Shown here one piece after another: positions 11,067-43,057 of a stretch of DNA of 64,000 bases (its first letter is position 1; each line of letters begins with the position of its first letter). Origin of the DNA: Sphaerolaimus hirsutus (lineage: Eukaryota; Nematoda; Chromadorea; Monhysterida; Sphaerolaimidae); contig OZ038456.1 of the NCBI GenBank assembly GCA_964036195.1, positions 17,732,001-17,796,000 of the forward strand, in the 5' to 3' direction. Below the pieces are notes generated by a model that was not told the DNA's origin, made no database searches, and saw only the letters and a list, made by a program, of their open reading frames with translations. Position numbers and translations under genes: made by a program.

Positions 11067-11208
11067 TCATGTATCAATCTTCTGCGATGTGCACGAGTTC
11101 TGGGCACCAGTGGTGATCACAAAAAAGTAGATTATCACAAATATAATGAATACCGTGGGGTAGAGAAGTCTGCACACCCTGTCCATGAACCTCGCTTTAC
11201 TGTAATAA
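11067..11208 (-). CDS. Ion channel terminal exon, TM4 and stop
   Basis: The exon reads KARFMDRVCRLLYP then TVFIIFVIIYFFVITTG and ends in a short polar tail and TGA. This corresponds to the family's ID..SR..FP..F..FN..YW TM4. The stop overlaps AATAAA (minus strand, 11067-11062), an immediate polyadenylation signal. An alternative acceptor (TTACAG at 11200) would remove three residues (YYS). The upstream intron is an introner copy. Confidence 0.82.
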
Positions 11209-14200
11209 CTGGGGACACTCCCAGGCCGTGTAAAATGTCATGCAAAGTGTCAAAAGTCATGTGAAATGTCCTGGAAAATAATGTCCTGCAAATTACCAAA
11301 AGTCATGCAAAGTGTCATCAGTCATGTGAAATGCACTTCAAAAAAAGGTCAATGCCATGTAAAGTGTCAAAGGCCATGTGAATTGCCTTGGAAAGTAATG
11401 TCCTGCAAATTACCAAAAGCCATGTGAAATGCCGTGGAAAATGTCATGCAAAGTGTCATCAATAATGTGAAATGCATTGGAAAATGCCAATGCCATGTAA
11501 AGTGTCAAAGGTCATGTGAATTGCCCTGGAAAATGTCAATGTCATGTAAGGTGTCGAAAGTGATATAAAAAGCCCTGTAAAATGGCAAACAAACAGTAAA
11601 CACGGAAATAGACATGCAGGGCATTTTACATGTCTTTAGACCCTTCAAATGACATGTCACCCTTCACCAGGCATTTTACAGGGTCTGTGAGTGGCACCTG
11701 CGCGACGTGGCGAGCACCTCGGCTCGAAGCGCGTCGCTGAGTCCCTTCTTGCCCGCAGCTCTCCTCTGCGAGCGGGGATTATTAGTTGGAGAGTTTCGAA
11801 TAAAATTGTCTAGGCTGGCCTCTTTGTTTTTTGGAAGGGGGGTGCAGCCGTTGACATGAAATCTCTTTGGAAAAATTTGGATAAAATATAAATAATTATA
11901 TTTTGTTGTATTTAAAAAGTGAGTCCTGTGATTTTTTTGAGCGCTAGCTATAAATTCACATATGTAACCTAGTATACTTGGTGAACATCACACTTAGTAT
12001 GGAAGCCTACCATAAACCATCTGAATAATGAGCCAATCAATAATGAAGTTTTCCATCACAATTATCGTTTTTACTATGGAATAATTAATTACGAAATTAA
12101 TCGCAAGATTTCATTCATTAAATTAGGGAGGATTCTGCGCATACATCGCGGTCCGCCGGCGCCGAGTATACAATGAATGCCGTTATCAACAAAGAACAAG
12201 TACCTATAATAATTACCGTATTTGCTCGAAATGCCCCCCCCCTCGGAATACCCCCCGTCGCGAAATACCCCTCCTCAAAATGGCGACTATGAAATGATTT
12301 CCCACCCCCTCGAAATCCCCCCCCCAAATTGCATGTACAGAGAATGTACTTGCCAAAACTGCGGTTTTTGACTGTGACTGTGTTACGTCAGAACAGGGTT
12401 CACACCTGGTGGCAGTCCCAAGCCCTGTAAAGTGTAAAGTAAAGTGTCAAATGTAAAGTCAAATGCAAAGTAAACTGTCAATTGTCATGCACAGTTCAGT
12501 AATAAAATCTTTTCTTTTTTGTTTTGATTGACACTTAACTTTGCATTTGACTTTACATTTGACATTTTACTTTACACTTTACAGGGCTTGGGACTGCCCC
12601 CCAGAGACGTATCCAGGATTTTTGAGCGGGGGGGCTGCTTGTTTACGAGGGTCGGCGAACGGGGCTAAATTTTTCCCTATATAGGTACGAAAGAGCGTTT
12701 TGGCGCTAGCGCCATACAAAAGGCGCCACGCCATGGCGCTATTGGCGTTGGCGCCAGCGCCGGGAACCGCTTTATATGTATGTAACTATGCATACATATA
12801 CTGCGAGAAGTTGTAAAAATGTGTTCATTTCTAAGGATATTGGTTTAAAGGGACCAATCCGCTGAAAATACAATGCATGGGGACGAAATTGCGCGCTTGT
12901 TCGCAAAATTTTTTAAGAAACATCAAAAATTATATGGGAAAAGTCGCATTTTCCGGGACTTTTTAGGTTTGACCCCGGGAAGGGGGGGGCTGCCCCCCCG
13001 CCCCCCTGGATACGTCCTTGGTTTACACCATCTAAATACTTGTCAAAGGAAGAGTACGTAATGTATTGTAGGTAATGTGATGAGAACACTAAAATGTTCG
13101 GACTTTTTTTCAGATGGATATGGTAAATTTCATTGTAAACTGTGTGCGACCTATGGTAAAATTCCATCTCAATTGAGTCCCTGACTTGACAGCACTTTTT
13201 GGATGGAAATACCGTATTTCTTCGATTTTATTGACTGTCAATGTATTGTTTCGTAAGCTCTTTTTGGGGGCAATGTAAATGAGCATGGCAAAGTGAATGA
13301 GCATGGCAATGTATATTCCAGAGTCTATTTTTCAAGTGCATTTGTAAAGTAAATATGAATATGAAATATGTTTAATGTTAACTCCACGTTACATTCATCA
13401 TAAGTTAGGTAAATTGTCGCAGCAGTGGAGTTGTCAGACTCCTAAAGTGGCAAACATAAAATGATAAATGGGATAATTATACATCGATATTTTCATACGC
13501 CAATGTATTTGAACACGGCAATGTATTTTTCGGATGCCCCACAGACCCGGCAAAGTAAACGAGCAAGCCAATGTAAATGAACAGTCAATAAAATCGAAGA
13601 AATACGGTATGCCAAAAAATGGCGCCATTAGCCCTGCGCACACTAGTTTTCCACAATGAGACATTTTTGATCTCCATCAACTAGTTGACGGTCATCTTAT
13701 TGTGGAAAACTCAAATGCGTTCTAAGTTGATTTGTGAGTTTTCGAAATTTCGTGTGAAAACTAGTGTGCGCAGGCACATTAAATCACCGCACTTTTGTCG
13801 TCGTTTAAGTAAACCGACCAGCACTTCGGATCTCCTATCGAAGCCAATCACGAAGAGTGTTTGTAGCAGCGTGAAGAACACGAAAATAATGACAACTCCA
13901 AACCACATGTCGATAGCCTGAGTTCGTGATGAATCATAAAAATACAATATTTCTCACTGATTTAGTATGAGTTATAAATACCGTATTTACTCGAATACTT
14001 AATTCTCCGGGAGTTATATTTTGAATTTTTTTGCGGGAGGAAGGGGGGTTATTCAAAGGGTGTAATTATTCATAATTGGTGTAAATACAGCAAATGCACA
14101 TACCGTATTTCCTCGAAATACCCCGAGAATGGAAACTGAATTTATAACCCCCCTCGAAATACCCTCCTCCCCCAAATATAGTGTATAGAGAGCCTAAATG

Positions 14201-17200
14201 ACAAAAGCTGCGGTCTGTGATCCGGGAAACGCAGAACACACGTTAAAAACAATGACTGTGTTATGTTAGAACAGGGTTTATAGATCGTGTACGTACTTAA
14301 ATAAATCTATAGATCGAATCTTTTAAATACATGTGTAGTAGTTGAGTGAACTTACTACAAGTTTACTTTGTTGTAATTCAATCAAATACTACACATGGCG
14401 GTTTTTGTTGCATTCTTTGACGTCTGTGTACGTTTATTACAAACAAACAAACGACAATTGAGTACTGGGATTCCAAAAAATTTCTGCCGAAATAATAACC
14501 CCCACTTGAAATACACCCCCCCCCGCCTCGTTTAACCCCCCTCAAAATTTCCACTCTGAAAAAATAAACCCTACGAGGGCGATTTGAGGAAATACGGTAT
14601 GCCGTAGCCCGTAACGTCTAAAAATAGATAGGCATTCCACCTTCATATAAGAAACAGCGGGCAGGTTTTCCCTGGCGCCGGCGCTCTCGGTGGACAACGT
14701 GAGCAGGACGGTGATGGCCACGCCGATCCTGCCCTCCATGAACTCCTGTGGCAGCCACACGCCCACCTGCGGTTGGGTGGGGGCGGGGGTTTTGTGGGGG
14801 TTGCAATGCTGGGCCCAGATTCAATTGGAAGGGCGCAGTTTATGGCCCCGATGCAGTCCGTGGTGCTACTCCCACGATGTGTGAAATGTAAAATGTCATG
14901 CAAAGTGTCAAAAGTCATGTAAAATGTCAATGTGGTCAGAGTTCGCCAAATTTTAGTGGTGTAGGTAGTCAATGTGCCCTATCTGATTTTTGCATAGTTA
15001 TCAACCACGCAACAGCGCCAAAATTCAGGTTATTTGCACTGCCTTCCGAATTGAATCTGGGCCCTGGTAAAACGTCAGTGGGACCACAAAATAATCAAAA
15101 TCGCACCCAGCTGAACATGAGCGCCAGGGAAGTGGGAACGTATGTCTGGGCTATATAGAATCCGGTCTCCCTCTCTAAATACATGGCTGCTTGGAGGCAC
15201 GTGTAGTTCACTGCGTAAAGCATTTTTTCCACTAAATTGCTTGTCAATTTTTTCTGCTGAATTTTTAACACATGTTTAGTTTTTGCAGCTTTCCAAGCCA
15301 TTACCGCAGACACATTTGAAAATTTTGAAAACTTCAAAAAAACTGAAAGTTCTGAAAGGTTTTCAACCTATTTTACCTTAAAAAATTGGTTTGCCATCGT
15401 TAATGTACCCCAGTCACCTGACACTCTGCACGCGCAGGTACTTATGTCTAACGTTGGAAGGGTGCCAAGTATTCTTTAAATCATCTATATCTGTAAAAAT
15501 ATGAAGAAAATTTTCGCTGTGAATGGGTAAATGTAAACCGTTAAAATAGCGTGAATTTTTTTCGTTTAAAAAAAAATAAAAATCGCGTTTGCTTAAATAC
15601 CGTTGGCACGCTTCCAACATGAAGGTGTAAAGTCGCTGGACTACATCAGGTACGCAAAGTGTCCACCCACCTGTCTCCCTCATGCCGTTGCAATATTCAG
15701 CGTCGTGCTTGATCAAATCCAACTCGGGCAGGTGTATCTTCGGGTTGGACCTGAGCGCGTGCTCAGTGTTCGTGAACCACTTGAACTTGACTTGGTGCTG
15801 GGGGTACGCGTCTGCGTAGGGGACCGCGGAGGGGAAGGTGGGTATATATTTAGGTACCTACGTTGGGTACCTAGGTACGTGTTTATGTGGTGCTGCCATC
15901 TGGCTCTTTTGCACTGGCGGGAAAAAGTGCATTGTGGCCGGATGGGCAAAATTTCAGAAAGAACATAAGAATTAAACACCGTATTACCTCGAATTATCAC
16001 CCTTGAATAACCCCTACTACAAGCATCCTGTGCATGCTTGTAGTGTGTAAAATGTCTTATGGCTTCAAATGCGTGTTTTAAATTTTCTGTAGTATTTGCC
16101 AAATTTTTTGTAAAATTTGTGAAAAATGTGTCTTTTTGGAATAAAATAACATGAAACATGAAAAAATAATAATTTAATACAATTTTCATATAATTTGTTT
16201 GCAATTTCAGTCAAAAGAATTTTTATACAACCAACCCTGATCGTGGCCACCATACACACACTCAATTGAAAGAAATTTGAACCACAGAAACCATAAAAAT
16301 TTGGGAAACCCATAAATCTGTTTTTGACCCAATTGAGTTCACCAGAATGGATGATTTTTTACTTTGGTCAACACAAGTTGACAGATTCCTCATTCTGGTA
16401 AACTCGAAGTGAGTAAAGTGATGAAGTAAAGTGGTAAAGTGAGTTCAAAGCAGTTGCCAAAGTGAGTTTCCCCAAATTTTTCTGTTGTACAAAATGGCCA
16501 ATGGCACCAACAGGAGGACATCTTCAACAGGCAAACTTGTTCATCGTGCGGGTATTTGCACAGCAGCAGGTTGCACGAAGGCTTCAGACGGATCCTGCAG
16601 TTATGGTAGGTAGTCTCAGTTTGATATTATGTACGGCAGTATTGGGGCTAGCAGTGAAAAAATCTCTCGGAGACTTATGTTTGAAGAAAATGTGAGAAAA
16701 CTTAAGATTTTTTCATATTTTTTATTTTGCCCAGATTTTGCAAGAAGAGAGATTTCCTGAGATGTTAAAAATTTATGAAAATATGGGTAAAAAAATCACA
16801 TTTTGCCAGGGGGCTTACCACAGTGATTTATGTATAGGTATTCACTTTCTGACAGATTCTCTGAGATTACTGAGTACTGAGTAGATACATTTACGTATAC
16901 ATTGAAAAAAGTAGCTGTACTCGCTTTTACGTATACTTTTTGAAAGTACTCGAGTACAGAATACGTATTTCAGGGGGTTTAAAATACGTAGATTTAAAAA
17001 AGGGGGCGATAAAGTGAAAAATAGGGAAAAGATTGCTAAAAATAGGCACATAACACATGTAGGTACTTGTGAATTTATGGTCAAAAAGGTATGAAAATGA
17101 GTGATTTTGAGTGAACATAGGGCTAAGATTTTCCAAAAAATACTCAAAAAATGTTTTCTGGAGGGAAAGTATTTTACTAGTGGTAAAGATAATATACTTT

Positions 17201-20200
17201 AAGTTACAAGTAAACAGTACTTTTACTTTACAAGTAAAAATAATATACTTTACGTTTTCTGTACTCAGGGGGTGAGTACAAAATAAATACTCTACATTTA
17301 CGTATACTTTGAAAAAAAGTTTGGTACTTTTAACAACTATGTTCCATGAACACACGGACCCACCTCGTGTCCCAGTACACTTCCCCGCCGCTGAAAACTA
17401 TCACAAGGAAATTCAGAAACGTCACGTCGTGAAAATCGGCATCTTTCGCGTTGACGAAAAATGGATCGGGCCTCCAAATACCGCCCAGGGGGCAGTCCCG
17501 GACCCTGTAAAATGCCCTGTAAAATGTCAAATGTCATGCAAAGTGTCAAAAGTCACGGAAGCCATTTTGCAGTGCATTTTCCATGACTCTTGACACTTTG
17601 CATGACATTTGACATTTTACAGGGCATTTTACAGGGTCTGGGATTGGCACCAAAGCGTCCTCGTCTTTTATCAAAATGGGATGGCTGAATTTGTTTATCA
17701 GCCGCACGTCGCGCCAGGCCATTAGAAGCCGTACGTCCATTTCGTAGTCCTGAATTGGTGAATACCGTATTTACTCGAATTATTGCACTGGGGATGTATT
17801 TTTGGCAGACTTTTTTTGGGGAGGGGGATACTTAGAGGAGGAGTACCGTATTTCTTCTAATAGAAGGACGGGTCTCTAATAGAAGGGCGTCTCCAATAGA
17901 AGGTACACTTTTTCGACTTAATTTGGGCCACAAAATAAATAGAAGGGCGGTCTCCAATAGAAGGTACACAAAGTTCTGGAATTGTGCCAACTGCTTGAAA
18001 ATATTAGCGGTTTTAGTATAACCAAATATTAGTATTGTGAAAATATGAAAATATTAGTATTGTGATTTAGTGGCTTTGGTCCATTGATTTTGTTGAATTT
18101 TTCAAGAAGGAGGCATTATTCGAGTAAATACTGTAAAAAAATTATTATATGTGCCATATCCATGGGCCATGGCTTGTGAAAATATCGAACAATTACAATG
18201 CATGAAACGAGCAAATGCTAAGCTAACCATGGACTTTGTGTCGAATTGCGACAACGACTCGATGTAGAGACCCGTTCTCACTACGATTGGTTGGCCTGTG
18301 AATGTGTCAAGAGTTATGGAGCGGCGTGGTGGAAGATGTAAAGCAAACCGTTTTTCCATTTACGATGGCAGAATCTCCGGCGAAATCACTATTAAAAAAT
18401 AATCCGTTCACCCACCCTACAAAATTAGACCAACCCACCCTTAAAAATAGTGGGCGGCGAGCGGGCATCATACCTGACCGCATCGAACAACGGGGTCAAG
18501 TAGCTGGACGGATAAGCCTTGACCTGGAAGGCCTTGAGCGCGTCGAAGATGTTGTCCACGGCCACGTCGTCACGCAGCACCTCGGCCATCTCGCTCAGGT
18601 TCAGGTCCCGGTGAGTGACTAGGTAGGTGACGTTGATGCCCACGTTGCTGTCGTCCAGGGGGCAGTCCCGGACCCTGGAGAATGTCAAATGTTGTGTAAA
18701 GTGTCAAAAGTCATGGAAAATGCCCTGCAAAATGGCAACAGAGTTGCCATTTTGCAGGGCATTTTCCATGACTTTTGACACTTTGCATGACATTTGACAT
18801 TTTACAGGGTCTGGGAGTGGCACCAGGTCGAACTCTGCGATTTGTGGTTGACTTTTTGCGTCGGATTTTCATGTTTAATTTGTCATTTAAAACGTTGTTG
18901 TATTCACACGATTAGCGATTAAAAATGTCGGGAAAATTAAAGGTACCTAGGCATATAAAAATAGATAATAAAATTTATATTTTAATTTTCTCTGGGGTAT
19001 TGCTGAGAATTTGTTTTGCTTTTAGTTTTTGAGAAGAAGATATAAAAATCTTTCATTTAAATTTGTATTTTTTTATTTCTGCGTTTTTTCAGAGAGATTT
19101 AATTAAAATTTTTTTAGAGATTTTATGAGATTAGGTTTTTGTTTGTTTTTTTTGGAAAAAAATTTCGGAACGCTACATTAACAATTTTTTCACGGTGCCA
19201 TTTTGCCTTCAATATTTGAAAAAAGGAATGTGAGGAAATAGGAATTTGTTTCATTCAGGGGTTAGAAGAGGGAGGTAATTTATGTTCATTCATGTAAATC
19301 CCCAAATGCAAGTCATTTATTTTCACCTGAAAACCGCGATAAATCGTCCTCTCCCGCTACCTGAGGCACGACATATTTGCAAATCTCCACCATATTAAAT
19401 CCGAGCGTTTGGTATCTTTCAAAAGCGGTGCCGCTATCCAACCCCAGCGCGAATGCCGCCTCTCTATTGTAAATGTAGAATATTGGCTCGTTCGAATCGC
19501 TCAGATCAATGTGAAAGTCTGTGCTGGGGGCAGTCCCAGACACTGTAAAATGTGAAATGTCATGCAAAAAGTCCAACCTAGTTGCCATTTTGCAGGGCAT
19601 TTTACATGACTGTAAACACTTTCCATGACATTTTACAGGGCATTTTACAGGGTCTGGCATCGGCACCTGGTGTCTTCATCGTCGTCGTGGTTGTGATCGA
19701 TGTCGAACCCCGACTCGTTGCTAATTACGAAATCGTCCTGTTCGATTCTGGACGCCTGTTGCCACTCCCAGACCCTGTAAAATGTCAAGTGTCAAAAGTG
19801 TAAGATCGAAATGGCAAACCCGCTTGCAATTTCACAGGGCATTTTACTCTGTCATTTTGATTTTGCAGGACTTTTTCCATAACTTTTGACACTTTCCAGG
19901 GCATTTTACAGGGTCTGAGACTGCCCCCTGGTGCGCTGATTCTTCTTGGGACTCTTCGTGGTCAGACTGTTCAGTTTCCCGCCGGACGCGTACTCGAAAT
20001 TGTACCCGTCTGCCGACAGTCGATGCAGTTCTGCGAAGATATGCACATACCGTATTTCTCCGTGTAAACCGCCCCCGTGCACAACGCCCGGGGCGTTATA
20101 CAGCTTAATAGCGCCCCCGGGGTGCTATGCTTCGTTTCAAAAACATTAGCCAAGTTTGAATATTTACATGACAAATCAGCTGAATTATAACGAAATGTCC

Positions 20201-23200
20201 ACTTGGTTTGAATTGTTTTAATGTTGTGCTTCGCTGCGGCATGCACGAATTCCGCGGTATGCACCTTTTTCTATTGAATTCGCTGCACGCTGGGAGCGAA
20301 CACAAAATATTTAAATATTTAAGCAAAAATTTGCCGTGTATAACGCCTCCCTCCGAATGATTTCACACCCGGGCGCTCGGTTTAGTGCCTCGGTTTTGTA
20401 TAACACTGGGGCGGTTTACACGGAGAAATACGGTAATATGTAAAATGACCACCTTTTTATAGACCCCCTTTTCTCGGGACGGGGGTATTTTTCGAGCAAA
20501 CAAAAAATTTGGTCGTAGCCCCGACATCAAACCCAAACATACCCGAACGGCATTAAAATCGGCCAACGTACAACAGAATGGGATGACAGTTTGATGGTCC
20601 CCTTACACTAAAATGCCACCCCCATTTCATTCTATGGATGCGCAACGATGGCAAAAACGAATATTTTTTAAACACGTAAAAACTAGTGAGTGTGTTCACT
20701 TGATACATCAGGTGGAAAAGTTAAGAGTTAAAACTTAAGAGTTGAGTAAAATGATAAATTATAAGTTAAGAGTAAAGTTCAACGTTAAGAGTCGAGTAAA
20801 ATCATTTGTCGTTTTACTCAACTCTTTAACTCTTAACTTTACTCATAACTTGTCATTTGTCATTTTACTCAACTCTTAAATTTTAACTCTGAACTTTTCC
20901 ACTTGCGGAACTGGCCCCGAACTAGTAAAGCATCAGAAGCAACTCGCCCGTAATCAGTGCCGACGTCATTTCGTTCAGTCGTCTCCTCGGCCGCCTCAAG
21001 TGCACGTGCTTGGAGCATCTCAAATTCAGCCGCCGCCTTGACAAGCTTCAGCAGCCTGAGCTCCTGGGGGCAGTCCCAGACCCTACCTGTCAAATGCCCT
21101 GGAAAATGTTAAGTGTCCTGCAAAGTGTCAATACGTTTGCCATTTTCTAATGTAGTTTTGACACTACATGACATTTGACGTTTTACAGGACGTTTTACAT
21201 TACTTTTGACACCGCATGACAGTTGACATTTTACAGGGCTTTTTACATGACTTTTGACACTTTGCATGACATTTGACACTTTACAGGGTATTTGACAGAG
21301 TAGTTAAAATCCCGGTATTTTTGGAAAGTGTAAGCGTAAATACACTTTCCAGATTTTCAGAATGGATACTGTAAGCGTACGGTATTTTCAAAACCCCTAG
21401 GAAAGCGTAAAAAAGTGTAAGCATAAGATTTTTTAACAGTGTGCTCTTGCTGTTGAGCATCTGACGACACCCTTCCTTTCACTTTTAGATGAATTTACAG
21501 ATCATTCCATTCATTATTCTCATCAAACACAATCAACACACAATAACACAACAAATACACACTGTTCAACACCAGGGGTCTAGTATAGCTATCGCTAGTA
21601 CAGAAAGTACAGCTATCTCCAGCTATCTATCTATCTATCTATCCCAGAGGTTGGTCTGCTATCGATCCTGAGTCTTGGCTATCTATTGATCCCCAACCCC
21701 CCAGAAAATGTTTAAGGTAAATACGATAATATGCGAGAGACAATTTTTTACGACACACAATTTTGACACAATTTATATTTCTTTTGCTATTTTCAATGAG
21801 CTATTGTTATGAATTTTCACCGGCTGCTTTTTACTCAACCAAATTCTACTATGGCACACTGCCAAGTTTTACCGATCTCACACCTACTCGTTGGATGAGT
21901 AACAAAGTAAGGCAACGGAAAAGCGACTACCGATTGAATTCGCAATGCACAATGGTGAATCCACCGAAGTGAATTTCACAGGTGTACGCTACGTTAATTA
22001 AGTTAGCTTTTTAGCGAATAGCGTTTTTATCAACGCACTAGTAATTAGTTGAATGTCTAATTTACACCAAGGGGTCCGAAGTTTTTTTAGAAGAGTTTTT
22101 ATTTTAGGCTATTTTAGACTCAGAATTCACTTCACACATTCAAATAGAACACAGGGAACACACTGAGAGCAAGTTTCTAACCAATGGCACAAAACCTTCG
22201 AAAACACTCCAAGAAATAAAACCGAAGCAATTTCGACTGAATCGACCCCTATTCTAAATTACGGTACTCTTTTATACGCAACAACATAAGCCAAGTCCAG
22301 CCAACACTTCCACATACCACGAGAAGCATGCTTACAGCCGATTTGACGGACACGCGGAATTTGAAAATGGGCATACCTAAAATTATTCACGGCGTCAGTT
22401 TACAGGATATGTCGATCAAAGTACACAAAAACACAAAGAATTCATGCGCAAAAATGGATGGGAACGGGAACGAGTACAAAAATAGAAAATGAACGAATGC
22501 GAGAAGAATAAAAAGAACAGGAAAAACACAGGAGATACTATAAAAACTTGTTTTAGCGCGAAAAAATGGCGGGCGATTCAAAAATTACTCAGCGAATTCT
22601 ACCGAAAATCCAAAACCACCTCCACGAACGGGGAAACACACAGTGATAAGCGAAACAAATAGGCACGCAAACAACAATCCCATTAGCAAAAAGAGCGTAT
22701 AGTAAATGAAAATAACGTTGATATCCAAAACGTAAGACGCACACGTATTATTAATGCACAATGACAAAATGTCGTAAGGGGGATAATCCATGATGAGATT
22801 AGGATACCGGTAAGGCGAATGGAATTAACTTTCACACTGACTGTCAAGGAAAAATAAAATTACGGTACCGTTTTAAAGACGCTAAGCGGAAATTCCACCA
22901 AAGTGATAAAATACGCACTCAAATCAGATCACCTTTACCCTTTACACTTATCAAAATATTCGGGGAAAAAACAGGAAAAACAAGCGGCTTATTATTTCAT
23001 CTCTTTGTATAATAAAGATCAATCACGAAATTTGCATAAATTCCTAAATATCCGAATGTCAAGTTAATCAGTTTTTAGGGGAAAAGGAAATACTCAAGAA
23101 CTATCTAGGATTAGGTAGATAAAACATAGCGAAGTTGCAAAAATAAAAATCAGACAAAAATTAACATACTCGAGTTTTACCTATTCCCTACCAAACCTAA

Positions 23201-26200
23201 AGTTAAAATGAATGTGAAATCGGTATGACGCAAAATACGAATGCAAATGATTGGCAACCGAAAACTTGACAACTTCAATCTTTTTAGCTCAAATGCATGT
23301 TTAGATTGCATGACTTTTAGAAGTTTGAAACTGAACGAAATATCTAAGTGAATCCACTGCCACATGCCGAAACGCAACAGCCACTAACCACCGAAGACAC
23401 TTACCTCTAGAAAATGACCACTTTCGCCGCTACACCACTCATTCTGCTACCAGAATGTTAATTAACTAACCATGGCTTTTGGTCCCATACGCACTGTGCA
23501 AAAACCACACCCCGAAAATACCGAACTATTCAATCCACTCAAAAATAAGTACACTTGTCACTGTATGGGTGCTTGTTTCGATGAGATCGGCGGACTGGGC
23601 TGTTTTCACAACAAGCCAAGGGAGTAGGCATTTAAACATGAACTCATGTTTGTCGAGTTAGACTCGATTCTTTTAATTACCTCTCATTTTCAACACCAAT
23701 CATCACCGCACCGCTATAATCAGTGTACTTTTGTAAAATCGCTTGTAAATTAACTTTTGTCTCTCAATCGGAAATGCAGAAATGCACAGTACATACTAGA
23801 CCAATAGCCACGGCCCTCACTTCCAAAAATGCAGTGAAAGTTAGTCAAATATCAACCTCTGTGTCCTCAGCCATCACTGACCATTCACGCACTACGACAC
23901 GTAACAATAGCGTCACTTTTTTTACTTAGAGAAAATAAACGAAACTTTATTATGCAATCTAAACTGCAGGTAAAATTTAGAAAATTACTTTTTAGTCAAT
24001 TTGCCACAAATAAAATTGTTGCCACCTCACTTGTCTCACTTCTCCACTTTAAAAAAAAAACCTAATTGAATAAAAAAAATTGCTAGACATAAAAAAAAAC
24101 AACTATTTACATCACAGCGTCAACTTTGTGTCAGATCCTCAATACCTCCAATCCTTTCCATGGCCAAATGGACACACATAACACAATGGGGCACCGGAAA
24201 AACGGAAATGCACGTCGCCAACGTAGCGCAGCAATGCAACGTCGCCAAAAACGTCAACGCCACGTTCGCCCACCACCGAATCGCCCAAACCCAACGTCGA
24301 AGTAGAACTGAAATGTTTTAATTACTGTAAGCTCGGAAGTGTAAACAAACATCTACATAAATTCATTAGGTGAACGGTATATACATTTACGTTTAAAATT
24401 TTTGGAATTTTACAGTTTTTTGGACACCCACTTTTGCTCACACTATTGCACACGTGCAGGGTTTTTTTGATGCACGTTCTCGTTCGATTTCTTTATTTTT
24501 TTGTTGTTTTACGCTTTTTCAAAAGAGTAAAACTGGCCGGTGTGAAATTCTTTTTACACTTTTATTACCCGGGTAATTTGTCTGGGAAAGTATAAAAAAA
24601 GTGTACAGGTATTTAATAAAGTGTGAGCAAGCGTAAATATAAATACCCATTTACCCATGTATTTTGGGTAAGTGTAAATACACTTTCACAACTCTGGTAT
24701 TTGACAGGGTCTGGGAGTGACACCAGCTTGTTCATCAGCTCCGCGTCTGGCTCCAGCGACTCGGAGAAGGGCAAGCAGAACTCGTCGAACACTTCATCAA
24801 CTACGCCTGACAAAGCGCGCGATTAGCTGTCTTGTCGCTTGGGTTGAAATTTTGGGGGGTGCACTGATACGCACATCTGCCCGTTACGCACATTTGCCCG
24901 TTTTTTCACTTGACACTTTTCCAAGTGATTTTCAGATATGAGTGAAGTGAAAAACGCTGCGCAATGACATTAGTGAACTTTTTTCACTTAACTCATATCT
25001 GAAAATCACTTGAAAATGTGTCAAGTGAACAACAATGAAAAATGGCTAAAAATGAGGTGACTACGGTCGAAATTTTCCGTTTTCCGAAATGGAAATTTTT
25101 AGGTTTCCGTTTTCTACTTTCCGGCATCGGAAAATTGTTCACCTCCCCTTTTTCCGACATCCGAATTTTTTACCGTTCCGTTTTCTGTCTTTCTCTAAAC
25201 GTCTTTTTGAGGCCGTGACACTTTTTCACAAACCAAATGCAGCGGCCACGTCGGACGTGTTTATCCACATTGCTGAAGGGTGGTCGGCGCACACCTCGAA
25301 CGTGTTCACCTCGATCGCGTCGTACTCGTTGAAGATGGCCGGGTTTATTCCCGCCTATGCGAGCTTTGCACTGGTTCGATTCTAGCTAGGACTAGGTTTA
25401 AACCAGATGTGTAAAAAGATTTATTAGACCAGAGTTGTTAAGAGTACTGAAAGTATGTGTAAACGTAAGGTATTTTACGTATTCACTGACTTGTGCAGAA
25501 AAAGTATTTTTACCAGGAAAATGTAAAAGGAAGATGTAATATTGACAAATATGAAATTCTAATAGAAGAGCGCCATTCCATATTTTCGTAAACCTTTTCA
25601 CCCGCCGCTATATTAGAGGTGCCGTTTTACTGGAGGCTGTCGTTCTATCGGCGGCTGTCGTTCTATTGTCTTCATGAGCGCAAAAACCGGCCATTCGATC
25701 GGAGGTGCCCTTCTATTGGATGTATGCAGTTTTATTAGAAGAAATACGGTAACTCGCCTCCTCCGCTTGCTCGGCGTTGGTGAGCAGCACGTCCCGCTTC
25801 GGCACGCCGTCGCTGTTGTTCAACTGCGACTGCATAAAGTCGTCCCAGTGCGGGTACCGGTACGCGTCGGACGTTTCGTTACCGCTCTCGTTTGCGCGCC
25901 GCTGCCTGCGGTCAGAATGTGTTTTGTGTTCGCTCGCGCTGGGGTCAGTAGTTGACAGACTCTACATTGGTAGACTCAAATGCGTTCAAACATACCTACC
26001 GCATTTCTTCGAAATACCCCCCGGGGGGTGATTGTATCAGAGTGAGAATTTTGAGGGGGGTTTAACGAGGGGGGGGGTATTTCGAGGGGGGGTTTTTAAT
26101 TGCGCGATAAATTTTTTGAACTTTCAGTACTGCCTAATTTGTTGTTCGTAACGTACGCAGACGTGGAAAAATGCATCAAAAACCACTATGTATGAGACTC

Positions 26201-27442
26201 TATTGAGTTGTATAAGTATGTAGTTGGTATAAACAATGTTCTAACGTAACACAGTCATTGTTTTTAACGTATGTTCTGCATTGCCCGGATCACAAACTGC
26301 ATCTTTAGTCATGTATGTTCCCTTTACATACAATTGGGGGGGGATATTTCGAGGGGGTGGGTAATTATTTCATAGTGTCCATTTTGAGGGGGGGTATTTC
26401 GGGGGGTATTTCGAGGAAATACGGTATTTACCGTATTTCTTCTAATAGAAGTGGGCCGTTTATTTTTTTCGTCGACATTTTTACTTGCCGTTCTGTCAAT
26501 TTCGTGAGTGCAAAAAAGTGCCAGAACCTGCCGTTCTATTGGAGGTGCCGTTCTATTGGAGGTATGCCGTTCTGTTAGGAGAAATACAGTATTAGTCTTC
26601 CACATGCTTCAGAAAGGAACCTAGTGGGCAAACTATATTTCGCCCCAGGGTCAGAGTCTCAGTAACTGGACACCGACCAGAACTCGCGCCATTGGTCGCA
26701 CGGCTCGAACAGGGTGATGTTCAGGGGGCAGTCCCAGACCCTGTAAAATGTCAAATGTCATGTAAAATGCCAGGGTAAATGGCAAACGTACAACACTTTG
26801 AATGGCATTTGACATTTGACACGCATTTTCCAGGGTCCGGGACTGGCACCAGGCCGTAGTCGCGCGCGTCGGCGCTGCGCTGCAGCGACAATATGCTGCC
26901 GTCGGTGGCGTTCCAGCTCCGCGTTGAGTTATCTTTGAGATTGGGTGTGGGCACAGGTCAGTTGACGATGGCTCTACACACTAGTTGACAGATGAAAATT
27001 CCGAAACTGATAAATGTGTTTTGAACACATAAGTTTGCGAGAATGAATCGCTTGAGATTTCCGTCAACAGTAGTTGACAGACACTTTATTCCGGTCAACT
27101 CAAATGCGTTGAAAGCTGATTTATCCGTTTCAAAAATTTCGGCCGTAAACTAGTGCGCGTGGGCAAAATTTCGAACGAGTATAAATATCTAGCATCTGAC
27201 GGGAATGTGAGTAAATTTTAATGTGGGTAAAATAAAATAAATCACGCACGAGCACGAGCGATAAAAAATCAACATAAATTTTTCTGGCTAAAATGGCACT
27301 TTACAGGGTGCGGGAATATGAATTAATGACCTGCTGATTCGATATTTCCGTGTGTATTCTGCTCTTGACAAATCGCTGAAAGCACCATACAACCAGTGAA
27401 ATATGCAACCCACTCCACATAGCCGAGTAATGGCCACCTCAT
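11067..27442 (-). CDS. Cys-loop ligand-gated ion channel with long N-terminal extension
   Basis: Pentameric ligand-gated channel of the glycine/GABA/glutamate-gated chloride branch in plasma membrane. Exons, transcription order: 27331-27442, 26850-26932, 26678-26721, 25754-25905, 25234-25354, 24724-24806, 20903-21063, 19910-20030, 19667-19755, 19327-19523, 18824-18834, 18439-18655, 18228-18295, 17651-17749, 17364-17485, 16512-16594, 15671-15811, 15107-15210, 14641-14766, 13819-13917, 11698-11765, 11067-11208. All phases agree except between 25754 and 25354, where a piece is missing or mis-spliced. Length is about 810 residues, against 450-550 for the family. The excess is an unrecognised extracellular region of about 430 residues, rich in N-x-S/T sites and acidic stretches. 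Several introns are whole transposable elements. The closest subfamily may be the insect group I / pHCl-like channels, but this is not certain. Confidence 0.85.
11209..11697 (-). mobile_element. Introner-like element copy I8 (489 bases), GT-AG, internally amplified
   Basis: Minus-strand ends are GCGCAG|GTGCCACTCACAG and GGGAGTGTCCCCAG|TTA, with CAG on both sides. The interior consists of many copies of units like CATGCAAAGTGTCA and AAAGTCATGTGAAATG, suggesting internal duplication of the element's subterminal unit. Confidence 0.72.
11698..11765 (-). CDS. Ion channel intracellular-loop exon
   Basis: This 68-base exon between TM3 and TM4 reads RRAAGKKGLSDALRAEVL then ATSR. The frame is fixed by phase with the TM4 exon (AG|T). 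The acceptor is CTCGCAG and the donor CGCAG|GTGCCA is the first base of an introner copy. The intracellular loop is very short for this family. Confidence 0.65.
12412..12604. mobile_element. Introner-family related element in an ion-channel intron
   Basis: Ends CTGGTGGCAGTCCCAAGCC and GGGCTTGGGACTGCCCCCCAG, with a palindromic interior. It lies inside intron 11766-13818, not at an exon border. Next to it is an element with ends GACGTATCCAGG (12605-13018). Confidence 0.65.
13819..13917 (-). CDS. Ion channel TM3 exon
   Basis: After CTCAG the exon reads AIDMWFGVVIIFVFFTL then LQTLFVIGFDRRSE, the family's KAID.W...C..FVF..LLE.A TM3. The donor is uncertain: CTG|GTCGGT (13819) and GAA|GTGCTG (13825) are both phase 0 and fit the next exon; a CAAAA|GTGCGG site does not. 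Confidence 0.82.
14101..14599. mobile_element. TACCGTATTTCCTCGAAATAC inverted-repeat element
   Basis: Ends TACCGTATTTCCTCGAAA and its complement TTTGAGGAAATACGGTA. The interior has C-runs, CCCCTCGAAATAC repeats and AACACACGTTAAAAACAATG, a core shared with the copies at 25998-26426 and 34455-34955. It lies in the ion-channel intron between TM2 and TM3 exons. Confidence 0.75.
14641..14766 (-). CDS. Ion channel TM2 pore exon
   Basis: The exon reads VGVWLPQEFMEGRIGVAI then TVLLTLSTESAGARENLP and AVSYMK. It covers the TM1-TM2 turn, the pore-lining TM2 and the TM2-TM3 loop (family pattern PAR.....T..LT..T.....LP.VSY.KA). The usual anion-selective PAR at the inner end of TM2 is replaced by EGR. A TACCGTATTT-family repeat (14101-14599) lies in the downstream intron, close to the donor. 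Confidence 0.92.
15107..15210 (-). CDS. Ion channel TM1 exon
   Basis: The exon reads NYTCLQAAMYLERETGFY then IAQTYVPTSLALMFSW. It matches the family's C.....F.L.RE.GFY..Q.Y.P......LSW at the end of the extracellular domain and TM1. The acceptor TTACGCAG and donor TGG|GTGCGA give phases matching both neighbours. Confidence 0.92.
15671..18655 (-). CDS. Ion channel ligand-binding domain exons
   Basis: Exons 18439-18655, 18228-18295, 17651-17749, 17364-17485, 16512-16594 and 15671-15811 encode the extracellular domain. Landmarks in order are RYDARSPPTIFKGQPIVV, TGLYIESLSQFD, DVRLLMAWRDVRLI, GIWRPDPFFVNAKDADFHD, GGEVYWDTRIRLKPSC, and YPHDEQVCLLKMSSYAYP. The signature Cys-loop runs from C in RLKPSC to C in DEQVC and reads CNLLLCKYPHDEQVC: 15 residues, with the conserved YP and D-x-Q. 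An extra Cys sits inside the loop (position 6), which is unusual. Confidence 0.9.
17486..17650 (-). mobile_element. Introner-like element copy I7 (165 bases), GT...TG ends
   Basis: It sits inside the ligand-binding domain: ...IKDEDAL on one side and GIWRPDPFF on the other, both frames fixed by family similarity. Ends are TTG|GTGCCAATCCC and GACTGCCCCCTG|GGCGG. The only in-frame join removes a sequence ending in TG (or its equivalent registers ending CT or CC). The element's internal ACAG acceptors shift frame by one. Reading through meets a stop. Confidence 0.78.
18656..18823 (-). mobile_element. Introner-like element copy I6 (168 bases), acceptor ambiguous
   Basis: Minus-strand ends are GACCTG|GTGCCACTCCC and GACTGCCCCCTG|GACGAC, with CTG on both sides. 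Exact removal gives EFDL-DDSNVGIN. Alternatively a canonical acceptor TTTTACAG 19 bases before the element end gives ...VRDCPL-DDSN if the neighbouring exon uses a different donor. Both keep frame, so this copy alone does not prove a non-AG acceptor. Confidence 0.68.
18824..18834 (-). CDS. Possible 11-base microexon of the ion channel
   Basis: Between ATCGCAG and the introner end GTGCCA lie eleven bases. They can be read as E-F-D-L (with donor TCAG|GTGAAA upstream at 19326) or as S-S-T-W (with donor CTCAG|GTAGCG). Both readings keep phase on the left. They differ in how the next intron must end, so the choice is open. Confidence 0.4.
19524..19666 (-). mobile_element. Introner-like element copy I5 (143 bases), GT-AG
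   Basis: Minus-strand ends are ACCAG|GTGCCGATGCC and GACTGCCCCCAG|CACAG, with CAG on both sides. Splicing at the element ends gives ...DEDT-S-TDFHIDL in frame. Confidence 0.78.
19756..19909 (-). mobile_element. Introner-like element copy I4, opposite orientation
   Basis: Here the element is inverted relative to the gene: the exon runs into CAGGGGGCAGTCTCAG and the intron ends GAGTGGCAACAG. A canonical intron is possible from the internal donor CCCT|GTAAAA (19909) to GGCAACAG|GCG, adding seven element-derived codons (QGAVSDP) to the upstream exon. Exact removal of element plus one CAG is also in frame but would not start with GT. Confidence 0.65.
20048..20435. mobile_element. Inverted-repeat element, TACCGTATTTCTCCGTG family
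   Basis: Ends are TACCGTATTTCTCCGTGTAA and its reverse complement at 20408-20435. The interior is partly palindromic (CGCCCCCGTG and GGGCGTTATA motifs). It lies in the ion-channel intron just upstream of exon 19910-20030. Confidence 0.7.
20708..20903. repeat. Palindromic GTGGAAAAGTT element at a splice donor
   Basis: The two arms GGTGGAAAAGTTAAGAG and GAACTTTTCCAC enclose repeats of AAGAGTTGAGTAAAAT and its complement. On the minus strand the right end supplies the ion-channel donor CGCAA|GTGGAA at 20902. Confidence 0.6.
21296..24696. mobile_element. 3.4 kb hAT-like element nested in introner I3
   Basis: Terminal inverted repeats begin CAGAGTAGTTAAAA and end TTTCACAACTCTG. They are flanked by a perfect 8-bp duplication GTATTTGA (21288-21295 and 24697-24704), as for hAT transposons. 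The ends belong to the same CAGAGTTGTT group seen at 60956 and 63370. No hAT transposase motif was recognised inside. Short ORFs with membrane-like segments occur on the minus strand (22585-22791, 22387-22581, and an open frame over 24126-24308). Confidence 0.75.
22585..22791 (-). CDS. Unidentified membrane-protein ORF inside the hAT-like element
   Basis: A 68-codon open frame starts MDYPPYDILSLCINNTC and contains a long hydrophobic run (IFIYYTLFLLMGLLFACLF) typical of one or two membrane helices. A possible donor (TTTCG|GTAGAA) lies near its end. It may be an exon of an element-borne or captured gene together with the frame at 24126-24308, but no homologue is recognised and chance cannot be excluded. 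Confidence 0.25.
   Translation of the reverse strand: MDYPPYDILSLCINNTCASYVLDINVIFIYYTLFLLMGLLFACLFVSLITVCFPVRGGGFGFSVEFAE
25998..26426. mobile_element. TACCGTATTT-family element
   Basis: Starts TACCGCATTTCTTCGAAATAC and ends TTTCGAGGAAATACGGTA. The interior shares the AACAATGTTCTAACGTAAC core with 14101-14599 in the opposite orientation. Confidence 0.72.
26429..26591. mobile_element. TACCGTATTTCTTCTAATAGAA short element
   Basis: Ends TACCGTATTTCTTCTAATAG and TTAGGAGAAATACAGTA, with internal TTCTATTGGAGGT repeats. Other copies or parts lie at 17845-17970, 25560-25752 and 56440-56533. Confidence 0.68.
26722..26849 (-). mobile_element. Introner-like element copy I2 (128 bases), GT...TG ends
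   Basis: Lies between the ion-channel exons 26850-26932 and 26678-26721. Minus-strand ends are CTG|GTGCCAGTCC and GACTGCCCCCTG|AAC. Removing exactly one CTG copy plus the element joins GGC CTG to AAC ATC ACC, a frame with nearly all third positions G or C. No AG is present at the 3' end in any equivalent register. Confidence 0.7.
27331..27442 (-). CDS. Ion channel first coding exon: signal peptide
   Basis: The reading starts with ATG at 27442 and encodes MRWPLLGYVEWVAYFTGC followed by MVLSAICQEQNTHG. This is a hydrophobic segment ending in small residues and a polar run, as in a cleaved signal peptide. The donor GCAG|GTCATT leaves phase 1, which fits the next exon at 26932 (two leading bases, giving D-NSTRSWN). 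An inverted-repeat element ends close to the start codon, so the promoter or 5' UTR may lie within transposon DNA. Confidence 0.6.
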
Positions 27443-27461
27443 TTTATTGTGCCCGTGCACA

Positions 27462-27640
27462 CCAGACTTCAACCGAAATTTCGAAAACTCATAAATGAGC
27501 TTCAATGCGTTTGAGTTTTTAAGAATGAGTTGTCCGTCAACAACAGTTGACAGAGATGAAAAATGACCCGTTTTAGACAACTTAAATTCGTTCAACGCTG
27601 ATTTATGAGTTTTCAGAATTTTGGGTGAAGTCCAGTGTGT
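27462..27640. repeat. Palindromic element 5' of the ion-channel start codon
   Basis: Arms such as CGAAATTTCGAAAACTCATAA and TTATGAGTTTTCAGAATTTTG face each other. The related copies at 13625-13775, 26975-27160 and 59067-59256 share CACTAGTTGACAG- or CACTAGTTTAC-like ends and GTTGACAG cores. Confidence 0.55.
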
Positions 27641-27648
27641 GTGGGCAC

Positions 27649-28592
27649 TAGTGATGGAAAAAGCGCCAGGCTTTCGGCGCCAAGCGCCAAAAGCGCCATG
27701 GCGCTTTTCTGACCCCGGCGCCAAGCGCCAATGGCGCCAGAGCAAAATGGCGCCAAGCGCCATTAGCGCCATGGCGCTTTTCTGAACCTCAGCGCCAAGC
27801 GCCAATGGCGCCAGAGGGTAATGGCGCCAAGCGCCAATAGCGCCAGCGCCAAAAAATTGTTCTACAATTTGATGGTAGAAAAATGAGTGCATAACTGTGA
27901 GTGACGTACCGCTGAAGTCATAGTAGTCTATTGAACTTTATTGCCCATTCAAACAACCACTAAATCGGGGCAAAATTTTTCAAATAATCGCTCTGGAGAG
28001 ATACATATCTGGTCGATTTGGTGTGGGGGGTGGGTGGCTCGGGGGATAGTAGCCTAAAATTTAGCCTCAGGTTAGATAGATACATAGCTGAACGGCCCGG
28101 GAATAGAGAGATAGCTGGAGCATTTGTTGGGGGGTAACCCCCCCTCCAACCCCCGCCAGACTGAACCCCTGATTTAGACTGCAAGAAAAAATTAGGAGCA
28201 AAGCACAAAAGGGGATTTACCGCGATTTTAACACCTCTGCTCTTATTCAATGTATGCATCTATTTATATAAAGTCTACCCTAATATTGATCAATATTTAT
28301 TCAGTTGCCTCAAAATTGATCAACTGCAGTGTCGATTTCACCATATTATAACAATTTTTTCATTATCATGGTTGGCGCTTTTTTGGCGCCATTTAAAATG
28401 CCGGCGCCAGGCGCCAAAAGCGCCACCAGAAAATGGCGCCAAGCGCCAAAAGCGCCATGGCGCTTTCTCGGACCCCAGCGCCAAGCGCCAATGCCGCCAG
28501 AGCGTTTTAGCGCCAAGCGCCAAAAGCGCCATGGCGCTTTTTGCTTTGGCGCTAGCGCCAGGCGCCAGCGCCATGGCGCTTTTCCATCACTA
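27649..28592. mobile_element. hAT-like element with GGCGCC arrays
   Basis: Ends TAGTGATGGAAAAAGCGCC and GGCGCTTTTCCATCACTA, with perfect 8-bp duplication GTGGGCAC (27641-27648, 28593-28600). Both arms are arrays of GCGCCAAGCGCCAA. The centre includes a piece of the GATAGATAGCTG element family (27960-28165). The overlapping open frames are alanine/arginine-rich by-products. Confidence 0.85.
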
Positions 28593-28996
28593 GTGGGCAC
28601 ATTTCTCGAGTTATTTATTTAATCTATTTTTAAGTACATACATTGTGAAGTTAACTACCTATTTGGTTTCAGGGATAATGTCTTAATGCGCTGTTTGTTC
28701 ATTTTGCTGTGCTGTAAAACTTGAAATCAACGATGACAATAAAAAAACCTCCGAACTTCGAAAACGTTATTTCACGTAGACGGCATAAGAAGTTCACCGT
28801 TTTTTATCCACAGTTAGCGGTCCGAAAATCCGGGAGACTAATATTTCTTTGATAGATTTAGGTACTCGGCGGACCGCAAAGTACCATAATTTAATGGTTA
28901 TTAGTTACCGCAAAGTACCATACTATTCTACCATAATTTAATGAATAAAATCTTGTGTTCAATTACGTCATTAATTATTGCAGATGAAAAATGAGA

Positions 28997-29397
28997 TACA
29001 GTATTTCCTCGAAATGCCCCCCTCCCCGCGAAATACCCCCCACCCCAAATTGAGTGTAAAGGGAACGTAAATGACAATAGCTGTTTTGTCGTTTTCTAAT
29101 TTTCTGATGAAATAATAAAACCGTCCTTGAATAAGCTCCCCCCCTCGAATTAACCCCCCTCGTAAAAATTTGCTTGGGAAATATAAAAAACCCCTGGGGG
29201 TATTTCGAGGTAGTACGGTACTTATATAAGTCAAAAGACTTATAAATACATACCGTATTTACTCGAACCCCCCCCCCCCCTACGGGAGTTTATTTTTATG
29301 ATTACCCCTCGCAATACCTCCCTCGTTTACAGCTCCCTCAAAATTCTCACTCTGAAACAATCACCCACCGGGCGTATTTCGAGGGAATACGGTATTA
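28997..29397. mobile_element. Two adjacent TACCGTATTT-family elements
   Basis: One copy spans about 28997-29220 (TACAGTATTTCCTCGAAATG to TTTCGAGGTAGTACGGTA). A second spans about 29252-29396 (TACCGTATTTACTCGAA to TTTCGAGGGAATACGGTA). Both have C- or G-run interiors. Confidence 0.62.
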
Positions 29398-29843
29398 TGA
29401 TGAAAAACTGCATAACCTTTGGTTCATTATTCAGATGGTTTATGGTATATTTCGATACTAAGTGTGACATCCTTCGAGTATATATAAGAAGAACAACAAC
29501 AACACCACTCCAAAACGAAAATCTGTAATAGCCTCCTTTCAACTTAACCATTTGGCCTAAAAATTTGAATGGGGTTACTTTTCGACCCAGACTTTTCTGC
29601 GGTATTATCAGTTTTCCGCTAGCATTCAGGCTAAGTTTTCTATTTTGCAAAGGTGTACAAATACTGGTATTTTTGGAAAACGTAAACTTAAACGTAAATG
29701 CCTTTTCCAAATCAAAAGTATAAATACTAAAACGTAAGGTATTTTTAAAATACCAAGGAAAACGTATAAAGAAACGTAAACGTAAAATTTTTACAGTCAC
29801 ACAGTATTTGCCATTGTGCATTGGAAATTACCATTATTTTCAC

Positions 29844-30123
29844 CTTTAGATGTGTAAATCGCTCCATCTGCACCACTTTCTGTTTTAAGTGTGGCGAAAT
29901 CCAACTACGCTGGTGATTCTGGGGGAGTCCCAGACCCTGTAAAATGCCTTGAAAATGTCAAATGGCATGCAAAGTGTCCAAAGTCACGGAAAATGCCCTG
30001 GAAGGTGGCAAATCATTGCCATTTTGCTGAGCATTTTACATAAGTTTTGACATTTGCATGAAATTTTACATTTTACAGGGCATCTTACAGAGTCTGGGAT
30101 TGGCACCAGAGCTTGCACTCGCC
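29844..30123 (-). CDS. Two orphan minus-strand exons around introner I1
   Basis: Exon 30107-30123 (17 bases, RVQAL) and exon 29844-29918 (25 codons, NHQRSWISPHLK onward) are joined across introner I1 in phase, with canonical acceptor (CTGGCAG) and donor (TAAAG|GTGAAA). They do not join the ion channel in phase and may be 5' untranslated exons of it or part of another gene. The exon at 36319-36508 ends in a compatible phase. No family is recognised. Confidence 0.3.
29919..30106 (-). mobile_element. Introner-like element copy I1 (188 bases)
   Basis: Palindromic element reading on the minus strand from GTGCCAATCCCAGAC to GGGACTCCCCCAG, between two possible exons. Left flank is CTG, right flank CAG, so it is a GT-AG intron whose splice sites coincide with its ends. 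Confidence 0.6.
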
Positions 30124-30651
30124 CTGCCAGTTTCAAAACGTGTGCTACTCACAGTTGTTGCAAGTGTGTCGTCAGAATTCATCACAAAAAAAATTATAAA
30201 GACAAGGCTACACAAACAAACAAAAAGTGTTCAGCATTTGAACACACTTATAAATATGTACCCAGTATTCCATGTGTAGGTAAGTGCAAGCGTGCAGTCA
30301 CTTTTTATGTTAATGTTAAATACGTTTATGCAAAAACACAAGAATATTGTTGGCTGCAGGTGGTACGGCCCATTTTAACATGTGCACGTGTGAACAATCA
30401 CAAGTTTTTTTTTACGTTTTCCATAGTACCAGGGTATTTTGGTGGAGAAAACGTAACAAAACGTAATGGTATTTTTGGAAAACGTAAACGTAAATGTAAA
30501 CGTAAGTATAAATACCCAAATAACCTGCTATTTCGGGTAAACGTAAATACGTTTTTCCAACTCTGCTATTTTGCTAATTCCGCATTTTGGTGTGTCTGAT
30601 CAAATACTGGGTACCTCACATTATTATAATTAATAATTATTACGCTTATTA

Positions 30652-31262
30652 CGGACATGAACCCATCACGCACATGCGCCCATTGCGCACATGATGAAAC
30701 CTGTCACGCACAATCACCCATCACGCACACAACTGGAGCTGTGTGCGTGATTGGCGTATGTGCATGATGGGTTTATGTGCGTAACAGGCGTATGTGTGTG
30801 AAGGGCAGGTGGATAGTGGGTGTGTGCACAGCACTGGGTGCAGCAAACAGAATACAACTAAAGTGATTGGCATGTTATTTCCCACACCTTTGCATTTGCC
30901 GCCCACATACGTAACAAAGGAGTGGGCTCCAAATTAAGTGTTAAGAAAACATTGATGACAAAAGCAAACCACAAATCAGTACTGGAAGTTCAAAAAATTT
31001 CTGGCAAAATTATAAGCCCCCTAGAAATACCCCCCCCCTGAAAATCACCCCCCAGGAGAAATATGCAGGGGGTAATATTGGATGTACCCGGTCACAAGTC
31101 AGACACGCACATATGCCTATTACGCACATAAACCCGTCACGCATATACGCCCATCACGCACGAAGCTCCAGTTGTGTGCGTGATGGGCGATTGTGCGTGA
31201 CGGGTTTTATCATGCGCGCAATGGGCGTATGTGCGTGATGGGTTTATGTGGGTAATAGTGCA
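30652..31262. repeat. GCGCACATGCGCCCAT repeat pair
   Basis: Two palindromic blocks (about 30652-30800 and 31095-31262) are made of units like CGCACATACGCCCATCACG and its complement. They flank about 300 bases containing a CCCCTCGAAATACC-like fragment. A smaller AT-rich relative (CATTACACATCTAGACCC) lies at 40285-40390. Confidence 0.5.
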
Positions 31263-42720: not shown

Positions 42721-43057
42721 CGACCCTGTAAAGTGAAGTCTCAAATGTCATGCAATGTGTCAATTGTCCTGACAAATAAAAAAATAAAGTGTCAATTGTC
42801 ATGACAAATAAAAAAATAGTGTCAATTGTCATGCGAAGTTCAGTAATAAAATCTCTCCTTTTGTTTTGACTGACACTTTACATGACGTTTGTCAGTTCAC
42901 TTTACACTTTACTGGGTCTGGGACTGCACCCAGATGGCAATCCCAGATCGTGTAAAATGCCGTGTAAAGTGTCAAAAGTCATGCAAAATGCCCTGCAAAA
43001 TGGCGACCGAGTCATGAAAAATGCCACAAAACCCTCCCAAAAATAACCTTTTTCTAG

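Follow-up and report, generated by a model that had tools for sequence, protein, structure and literature searches.

A hairpin transposon family as a probable source of GT-AG and GT-TG introns in conserved genes of Sphaerolaimus hirsutus

The element and the channel gene that it interrupts

In the 64,000-nucleotide stretch of Sphaerolaimus hirsutus DNA analysed here (the window), a Cys-loop channel gene on the minus strand, with exons from about 26.9 to 11.1 kb, is parted again and again by copies of one palindromic element, which raises the question of whether a transposable element has itself become the introns of this gene and, if so, how such introns are removed from the RNA. The conserved part of this glycine-receptor-like channel, comprising the exons of the ligand-binding domain, Cys-loop and TM1-TM4 (11082..18296, minus strand, as are all features of the gene given below), was recognised by PDB and Pfam matches, the best solved relative being glycine receptor alpha-1 (PDB 8dn2, E 1.4e-58) and the Pfam families Neur_chan_LBD (5.8e-26) and Neur_chan_memb (3.7e-22). 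It is preceded by the exons of an N-terminal extension (18476..26927), several of which are conserved in a paralogue; a Pfam search with the 395 residues of this extension, admitting E values up to 0.1, gave no match.

A 26-base element end gave 13 matches in the window at up to 3 mismatches and 0 in 100 shuffles, and a search allowing up to 5 mismatches found both ends for each of the eight palindromic copies that an earlier reading of the sequence alone (the sequence-only reading) had placed there. That reading described the ends as the same and mirrored; the elements are indeed palindromic with similar ends, but the ends differ (GTGCC at one, GGGGC at the other). The T-end is GTGCCAGTCCC (in a longer or other rendering GTGCCAGTCCCAGACC) and the G-end is GGGGCAGTCCC (likewise GGGGCAGTCCCAGACC), and since they are alike yet not identical, the element has a direction. 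It starts 3 bases inside the starts given earlier, the target copy lying just outside it. The usual flank on both sides is CAG or CTG (a CWG target). Among 88 copies delimited in the window and in a genome sample (see below), the two target copies were CTG/CTG in 26, CAG/CAG in 19, one of each in 8 and changed in 35; matching CTG or CAG flanks in 45/88, together with the inverted ends, are what marks a MITE (a cut-and-paste DNA transposon). The duplication itself may be just 2 bases with a preference for C, as suggested by the letters at 17486, where the upstream flank and the paralogue have TTG and the downstream flank has CTG. Lengths were 116-197 bases in 76 of the delimited copies and 221-435 in the other 12. 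When four copies were folded as RNA, the hairpins had z-scores of -19.7, -16.9, -8.7 and -3.5, the first two having been trimmed of the outermost 13 and 15 bases before folding; the weakest was 19524, whose folding was equalled by 1 of 200 shuffles. Group medians for coding copies were near -0.6 kcal/mol per base, and the folded copies thus have the paired inverted ends of a substrate of SOS splicing.

CWG targets are known for Harbinger elements. The genome contains 163 matches to the Harbinger-type transposase DDE_Tnp_4, a high-copy family; the one match inspected (951 bases) did not carry the element ends and looks like a gene broken by short non-coding stretches. A 22-mer of the element end had no match in IMG/VR. 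Elsewhere in the window, copies or pieces of the same subfamily and of a sister one (ends GGGGCAGTCCCAAGCCCTG) were seen at 280-446, 12409-12600, 41608 and 42710-42930, and were assigned to no exon. Differing long palindromes at 20709-20905, 24902-25032 and 30647-31257, with arms of 80, 53 and 154 bases in that order, are perhaps further families of hairpin transposons.

Seven of the eight copies part coding exons of the channel gene, and on the minus strand the frame joins after removal of the element and one target copy, in agreement with the earlier statement that seven lie between coding exons with joining phases. Six of them begin with GT on the coding strand, and the last two bases are from the target copy; because the GT is supplied by the element and the 3' end by the target copy, a CAG target gives GT-AG and a CTG target gives GT-TG. 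GT-TG was found at three predicted introner introns, 26722..26849 (element 26725-26849 plus CTG; junction DYGL|NITLFEP), 18656..18823 (element 18659-18823; IAEFDL|DDSNVG) and, within the ligand-binding domain, 17486..17650 (element 17489-17650; KDEDAL|GGIWRPD). The flanks of 26722 were concordant in the coding frame, with scores of 1.2 and 5.4 in a codon-position model (described below), the short exon upstream of 18656 was poorly scored by that model, and 17486 interrupts a conserved stretch before IWxPD where the joined protein aligns to the glycine receptor without a gap. GT-AG was found at the much enlarged 21064..24723 (element 21067-24723; MNKL|ELRLL), at 19524..19666 (element 19527-19666; DDDEDT|STDFHID), with concordant coding flanks, and at 11209..11697 before TM4 (element 11212-11697; LATSR|SYYSKARFMD), where both ends were found, the frames join and TM4 aligns. 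The seventh, 19756..19927 (element 19759-19927; EESAHQ|ASRIEQ), is an inverted copy with GG-AG at its exact boundary; an out-of-frame join, to which the G+C of third positions in the upstream exon had pointed, was refuted by the paralogue, which shows the other frame to be coding. The eighth copy (29919..30106; target copy 29919-29921, element 29922-30106) has both ends and negative coding scores on both flanks, and from these scores and a preceding GTGAGT, seen by eye, it probably sits in an ordinary intron. The proposal of up to eight introners in this region is supported for seven copies, by the in-frame joins, the homology at 17486 and the paralogue, and is not supported for 29919 with its non-coding flanks.

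Sites without the element in a paralogue

A search of the genome (348 Mb, 762 contigs) found a close channel paralogue on another contig, C13, in which a single unbroken run of 74 residues is 93% identical. The comparison of sites covers five of the seven coding sites (17486, 18656, 19524, 19756 and 21064), 26722 and 11209 lying outside it; tblastn against the fetched C13 stretch gave no hit for the exons flanking 26722. The paralogue is uninterrupted at four of these five. It reads GACGATTTG|GGCGGC at 17486, FDL|ADSNVG at 18656 and MNEL|EDRLL with CTG at 21064, each with no element, and at 19756 the exon continues in the same frame (..HEHSGLDSTIEQ), which was read by eye at low similarity, the tblastn match (29.6 bits) covering the upstream part only. 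These uninterrupted sites indicate that the copies are exon insertions turned into introns. The same element is present at the same place at 19524 in both genes, so this insertion is older than their duplication, and the paralogue has a copy of its own that splits an exon whose counterpart in the window gene is intact. At 21064 the window has CTG as the donor-side target copy and CAG as the acceptor-side one, and with CTG also in the paralogue, the AG was made by a change of T to A. Over 493 aligned codons the pair had a dN/dS of 0.28 (bootstrap 0.21-0.39), 8 of the 21 window exon pieces being without a paralogue hit and four of those lying outside the fetched stretch. The paralogue also has an ordinary, GT-AG-looking intron after STIEQ (positions 2734-3031 of the fetched DNA) where the window is continuous (19755-19700, IEQDDF), which is an intron gain or loss unrelated to the element.

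Copies across the genome and in conserved genes

The 22-base core of the element end occurs 2158 times exactly in the genome, with up to two occurrences per element, so that the count of ends proposed by the sequence-only reading revealed an action across the genome which that reading, upheld as to introners, had missed, together with the lack of GT-AG at four of the seven exact boundaries in the channel gene. The first 100 of the 2158 matches listed, all on contig C1 and not chosen for genes, gave 70 loci, some overlapping; the 88 delimited copies come from these and the window, 80 of them from outside it. After removal of 2 duplicates and 2 copies with short flanks, 76 copies were scored, a few near-duplicate loci being left. 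Five pairs of similar loci have the element at the same place (L030/L031, L043/L045, L057/L058, L062/L063 and L019/L020) and are probably duplications. An initial use of open frames from stop to stop was abandoned, as the exact join gave the longest frame in just 27/88 and every reading frame of a GC-rich exon tends to stay open over long distances, and was replaced by a codon-position model with controls, trained on 720 codons of the window channel gene, on which the direction bias and the coding counts depend.

Positive coding scores on both flanks were obtained for 31 of the 76 copies outside the window, and strand and frame were restored by the exact join in 19 of these 31 (5.2 expected). 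Removing 1 or 2 bases too many restored them in 2 and 1 of 32, and random positions in the same loci did so in 7/597. As introners would be, the family is thus present as many similar copies at unrelated gene positions (2158 ends; 19/76), and in the sample and at the seven window sites the element makes up the whole intron with the frame kept. The T-end, with its GT, lay upstream in 17 of the 19 coding copies (p 0.0007), and the 17 sense copies comprised 12 GT-AG and 5 GT-TG. A second sample took 20 CTG-acceptor and 20 CAG-acceptor copies, of which 4 and 5 were dropped for want of a second end or for a short flank; strictly concordant coding copies numbered 7/16 in the former, all sense (7/7, p 0.016), and 4/15 in the latter (3 sense, 1 antisense). 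The pooled list of 36 coding copies, some of them selected for their acceptor letters and two (window 18656 and L017:1497) included manually, consists of 18 GT-AG, 16 GT-TG and 2 inverted copies. Over all exact 22-base ends in the genome the acceptor side had CAG 815 and CTG 557 times, against 686 and 587 on the donor side (p 0.005). Where the two target copies were unlike, coding sites in the pooled list had CTG..CAG in 7 and CAG..CTG in 0, and the whole first sample had 6 and 2; the coding excess is suggestive of selection on the 3' end, since the CAG-acceptor sample contributed 3 of these 7, while the change at 21064 is polarised.

Twenty joined peptides (one with two successive OSCP1 joins) were searched against Pfam, and 10 exceeded the cut-off. 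The best printed stretch spans the junction in 8 of these 10 and misses it in a cadherin and an ST13-like peptide; a third piece of one gene, BCKDHA, fell just below, with 21.1 bits against the required 22, and no match above the cut-off was obtained for the remaining 9 peptides. An Srx-type receptor match is a weak hint of nematodes; a search for SL1 RNA had no hit, and its controls gave none either. Where a gene name goes further than the Pfam and PDB titles, it is our assignment. In CNOT9 (L073, at 10.596 Mb of C1), with a GT-TG copy that also belongs to the sample, 99 residues align to 99 profile positions of Rcd1 over the junction (7.2e-50); DNA and protein searches of the genome found this interrupted locus and no second one. 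The BCKDHA gene (L064, C1:8.335-8.337 Mb), represented among the 19 coding copies of the first sample, has three delimited copies, one GT-AG, one GT-TG and one inverted, and its joined protein matches the solved enzyme 1dtw (human) at 1.4e-127. The alignment has no gap at the GT-TG junction; single-residue gaps lie four positions upstream of the inverted junction and four positions downstream of the GT-AG junction. Another element end at L064:3901, just upstream of the exon GEEAASVG, suggests a fourth introner in this gene, and a diverged relative of it (43% identity) is found on contig C2. Two copies, a GT-TG and a GT-AG one, lie in the OSCP1 gene (L017, C1:3.592 Mb), with matches of the joins to Oscp1 at 4.4e-17 and 3.4e-19 and no length change across either junction; the GT-TG join places 42 residues on 42 profile positions over the junction.

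GT-AG alternatives were searched for at 11 non-GT-AG copies, with donors from 30 bases before the element and acceptors to 40 after it. In-frame alternatives exist for 10 of the 11, and all those printed, at most five for any copy, would change the protein by gaining, losing or exchanging residues. There are 7 at 26722, every printed one of which alters the protein, 8 at 18656, none of them length-neutral, 6 at 17486, the smallest of which adds 30 nt at the cost of GGIWR, and 21 at 19756. Length-neutral ones exist at three copies (19756, L017:1497 and L033:1882). At L064:1824, in BCKDHA, there was no in-frame GT-AG alternative within these limits. A stricter count (none for 18656, 3 for 26722) had read into stops outside the short flanking exons and was replaced.

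Removal from the RNA and comparison with known systems

We consider it likely that this hairpin DNA transposon is an introner whose copies are spliced at TG or AG with the aid of the hairpin and mature towards AG. The element would be a non-autonomous, hairpin-forming DNA transposon with CWG targets that inserts into an exon and duplicates its target. With the GTGCC end upstream on the coding strand, it would supply the 5' splice site, its other end would supply the pyrimidine stretch CTGCCCC, and the duplicated target would supply the 3' end, as CAG (GT-AG) or CTG (GT-TG). The RNA would be cut exactly at the element and one target copy, and such a cut leaves the protein unchanged. The hairpin probably draws the two ends close to each other and helps the spliceosome to accept TG, and a later change of T to A in the downstream target copy would turn TG into AG. 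A machine that reads GT, presumably the spliceosome, is suggested by the shift to AG and by the direction bias, which extends to the GT-TG copies. The GT-TG copies in CNOT9, BCKDHA and OSCP1 and the inverted ones in BCKDHA and at 19756 suggest that excision can do without some of the usual letters, and the obvious aid to this would be the hairpin. Against this explanation stand the inverted copies of BCKDHA and 19756, which need to be removed although a GT is missing from their exact boundary, the rarity of TG as a 3' splice site, with few human examples (PMC4176328), and the in-frame GT-AG alternatives at 10 of the 11 non-GT-AG copies.

It is unlikely that the copies are instead cut from the mRNA by SOS-type excision, in which the paired inverted ends are read as a structure, the RNA is religated by RTCB without the spliceosome and the splice letters matter only later. 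Such excision exists in animals (PMC13247085) and would agree with the strong hairpins of the folded and coding copies, with the inverted copies inside coding exons (L064:3539 in BCKDHA and window 19756) and with the need for exact removal where GT-AG is absent, as at L064:1824; a reader of structure should ignore direction, yet GT lies upstream in 17/19 and 7/7 coding copies, and the excess of CAG on the acceptor side also argues against it. Cryptic canonical splicing, at a GT and an AG within the hairpin or the nearby exon, with short in-frame insertions or deletions, is somewhat less likely again: open in-frame pairs are at hand for 10 of the 11 non-GT-AG copies, including 18656, 26722 and 19756, but there is none for L064:1824, and in CNOT9, BCKDHA and OSCP1 they would alter residues at junctions whose GT-TG joins give gapless alignments with homologues.

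That the copies are recent gene-breaking insertions, in dying or polymorphic genes of which the broken allele was assembled, is very improbable. The uninterrupted channel paralogue and the diverged BCKDHA relative would suit such insertions, against which stand seven copies with open exons in one channel and three delimited copies in one BCKDHA gene, the presence of a copy in the only CNOT9 gene found, the direction bias and the channel dN/dS. Scarcely credible, finally, is the later invasion of old introns, which the sequence-only reading had named as what would overturn it: the copy at 19524, shared by both paralogues, would suit it, but the whole intron is the element plus one target copy, and in the paralogue the exons at 17486, 18656, 21064 and, by eye, 19756 have no interruption. 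Beside the preferred explanation we tentatively entertain, as possible though doubtful, a birth of introns in two steps, in which a hairpin transposon within an exon would at first be taken out of the RNA on account of its structure, whatever the splice letters, and the gene thereby sheltered, until a change from CTG to CAG in the duplicated target made an ordinary GT-AG spliceosomal intron.

The origin of introns is a long-standing question, and this genome offers young introns of one family in conserved animal genes, together with uninterrupted paralogous sites and a series from GT-TG to GT-AG. The inverted copies separate excision directed by structure from that directed by sequence. Whether TG acceptors are tolerated, and whether hairpin-directed excision has a part in the birth of introns, can here be tested directly.

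DNA-transposon introners were reportedly described by Huff et al. in 2016. In a survey of introners, the element supplies one splice site and the target copy the other, and introners are enriched in genes (Gozashti et al. 2022, PMC9860276). The present family resembles these introners in its target duplications, inverted ends, copies that become introns and genic enrichment, and differs from them in its long hairpin, in CTG targets that give an apparently tolerated GT-TG, and in the polarised change from TG to AG. It also differs in being found in an animal, the survey giving two groups with introners, both animals, among 835 animal and land-plant genomes (PMC9860276).

SOS splicing works through recognition of a hairpin, with AKAP17A and CAAP1 as factors. 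It removes DNA transposons from animal mRNA independently of GT-AG (Zhao et al. 2026 Nature, as reported in the review PMC13247085) and requires RTCB. Such GT-AG-independent removal would fit GT-TG and the inverted copies here; unlike its substrates as presented there, these element copies are fixed, genome-wide, directional and shifting towards AG. The tunicate Fritillaria likewise is an animal with numerous non-GT-AG introns, those of the present genome being predicted; 95% of its introns escape GT/AG, and one source considered there is introner transposons whose splice sites are weak (PMC13326754). Unlike that case, the channel's ordinary introns look GT-AG by eye and only the element introns deviate, as judged within the channel gene. 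Introners with splice sites supplied by the target are already known (PMC9860276); GT-TG acceptors, inverted coding copies and a polarised acceptor change are new as far as searches of open-licence PMC reach. Functional GT-TG splice sites in human, as in GNAS, are isolated cases (PMC4176328), whereas here GT-TG belongs to a mobile family.
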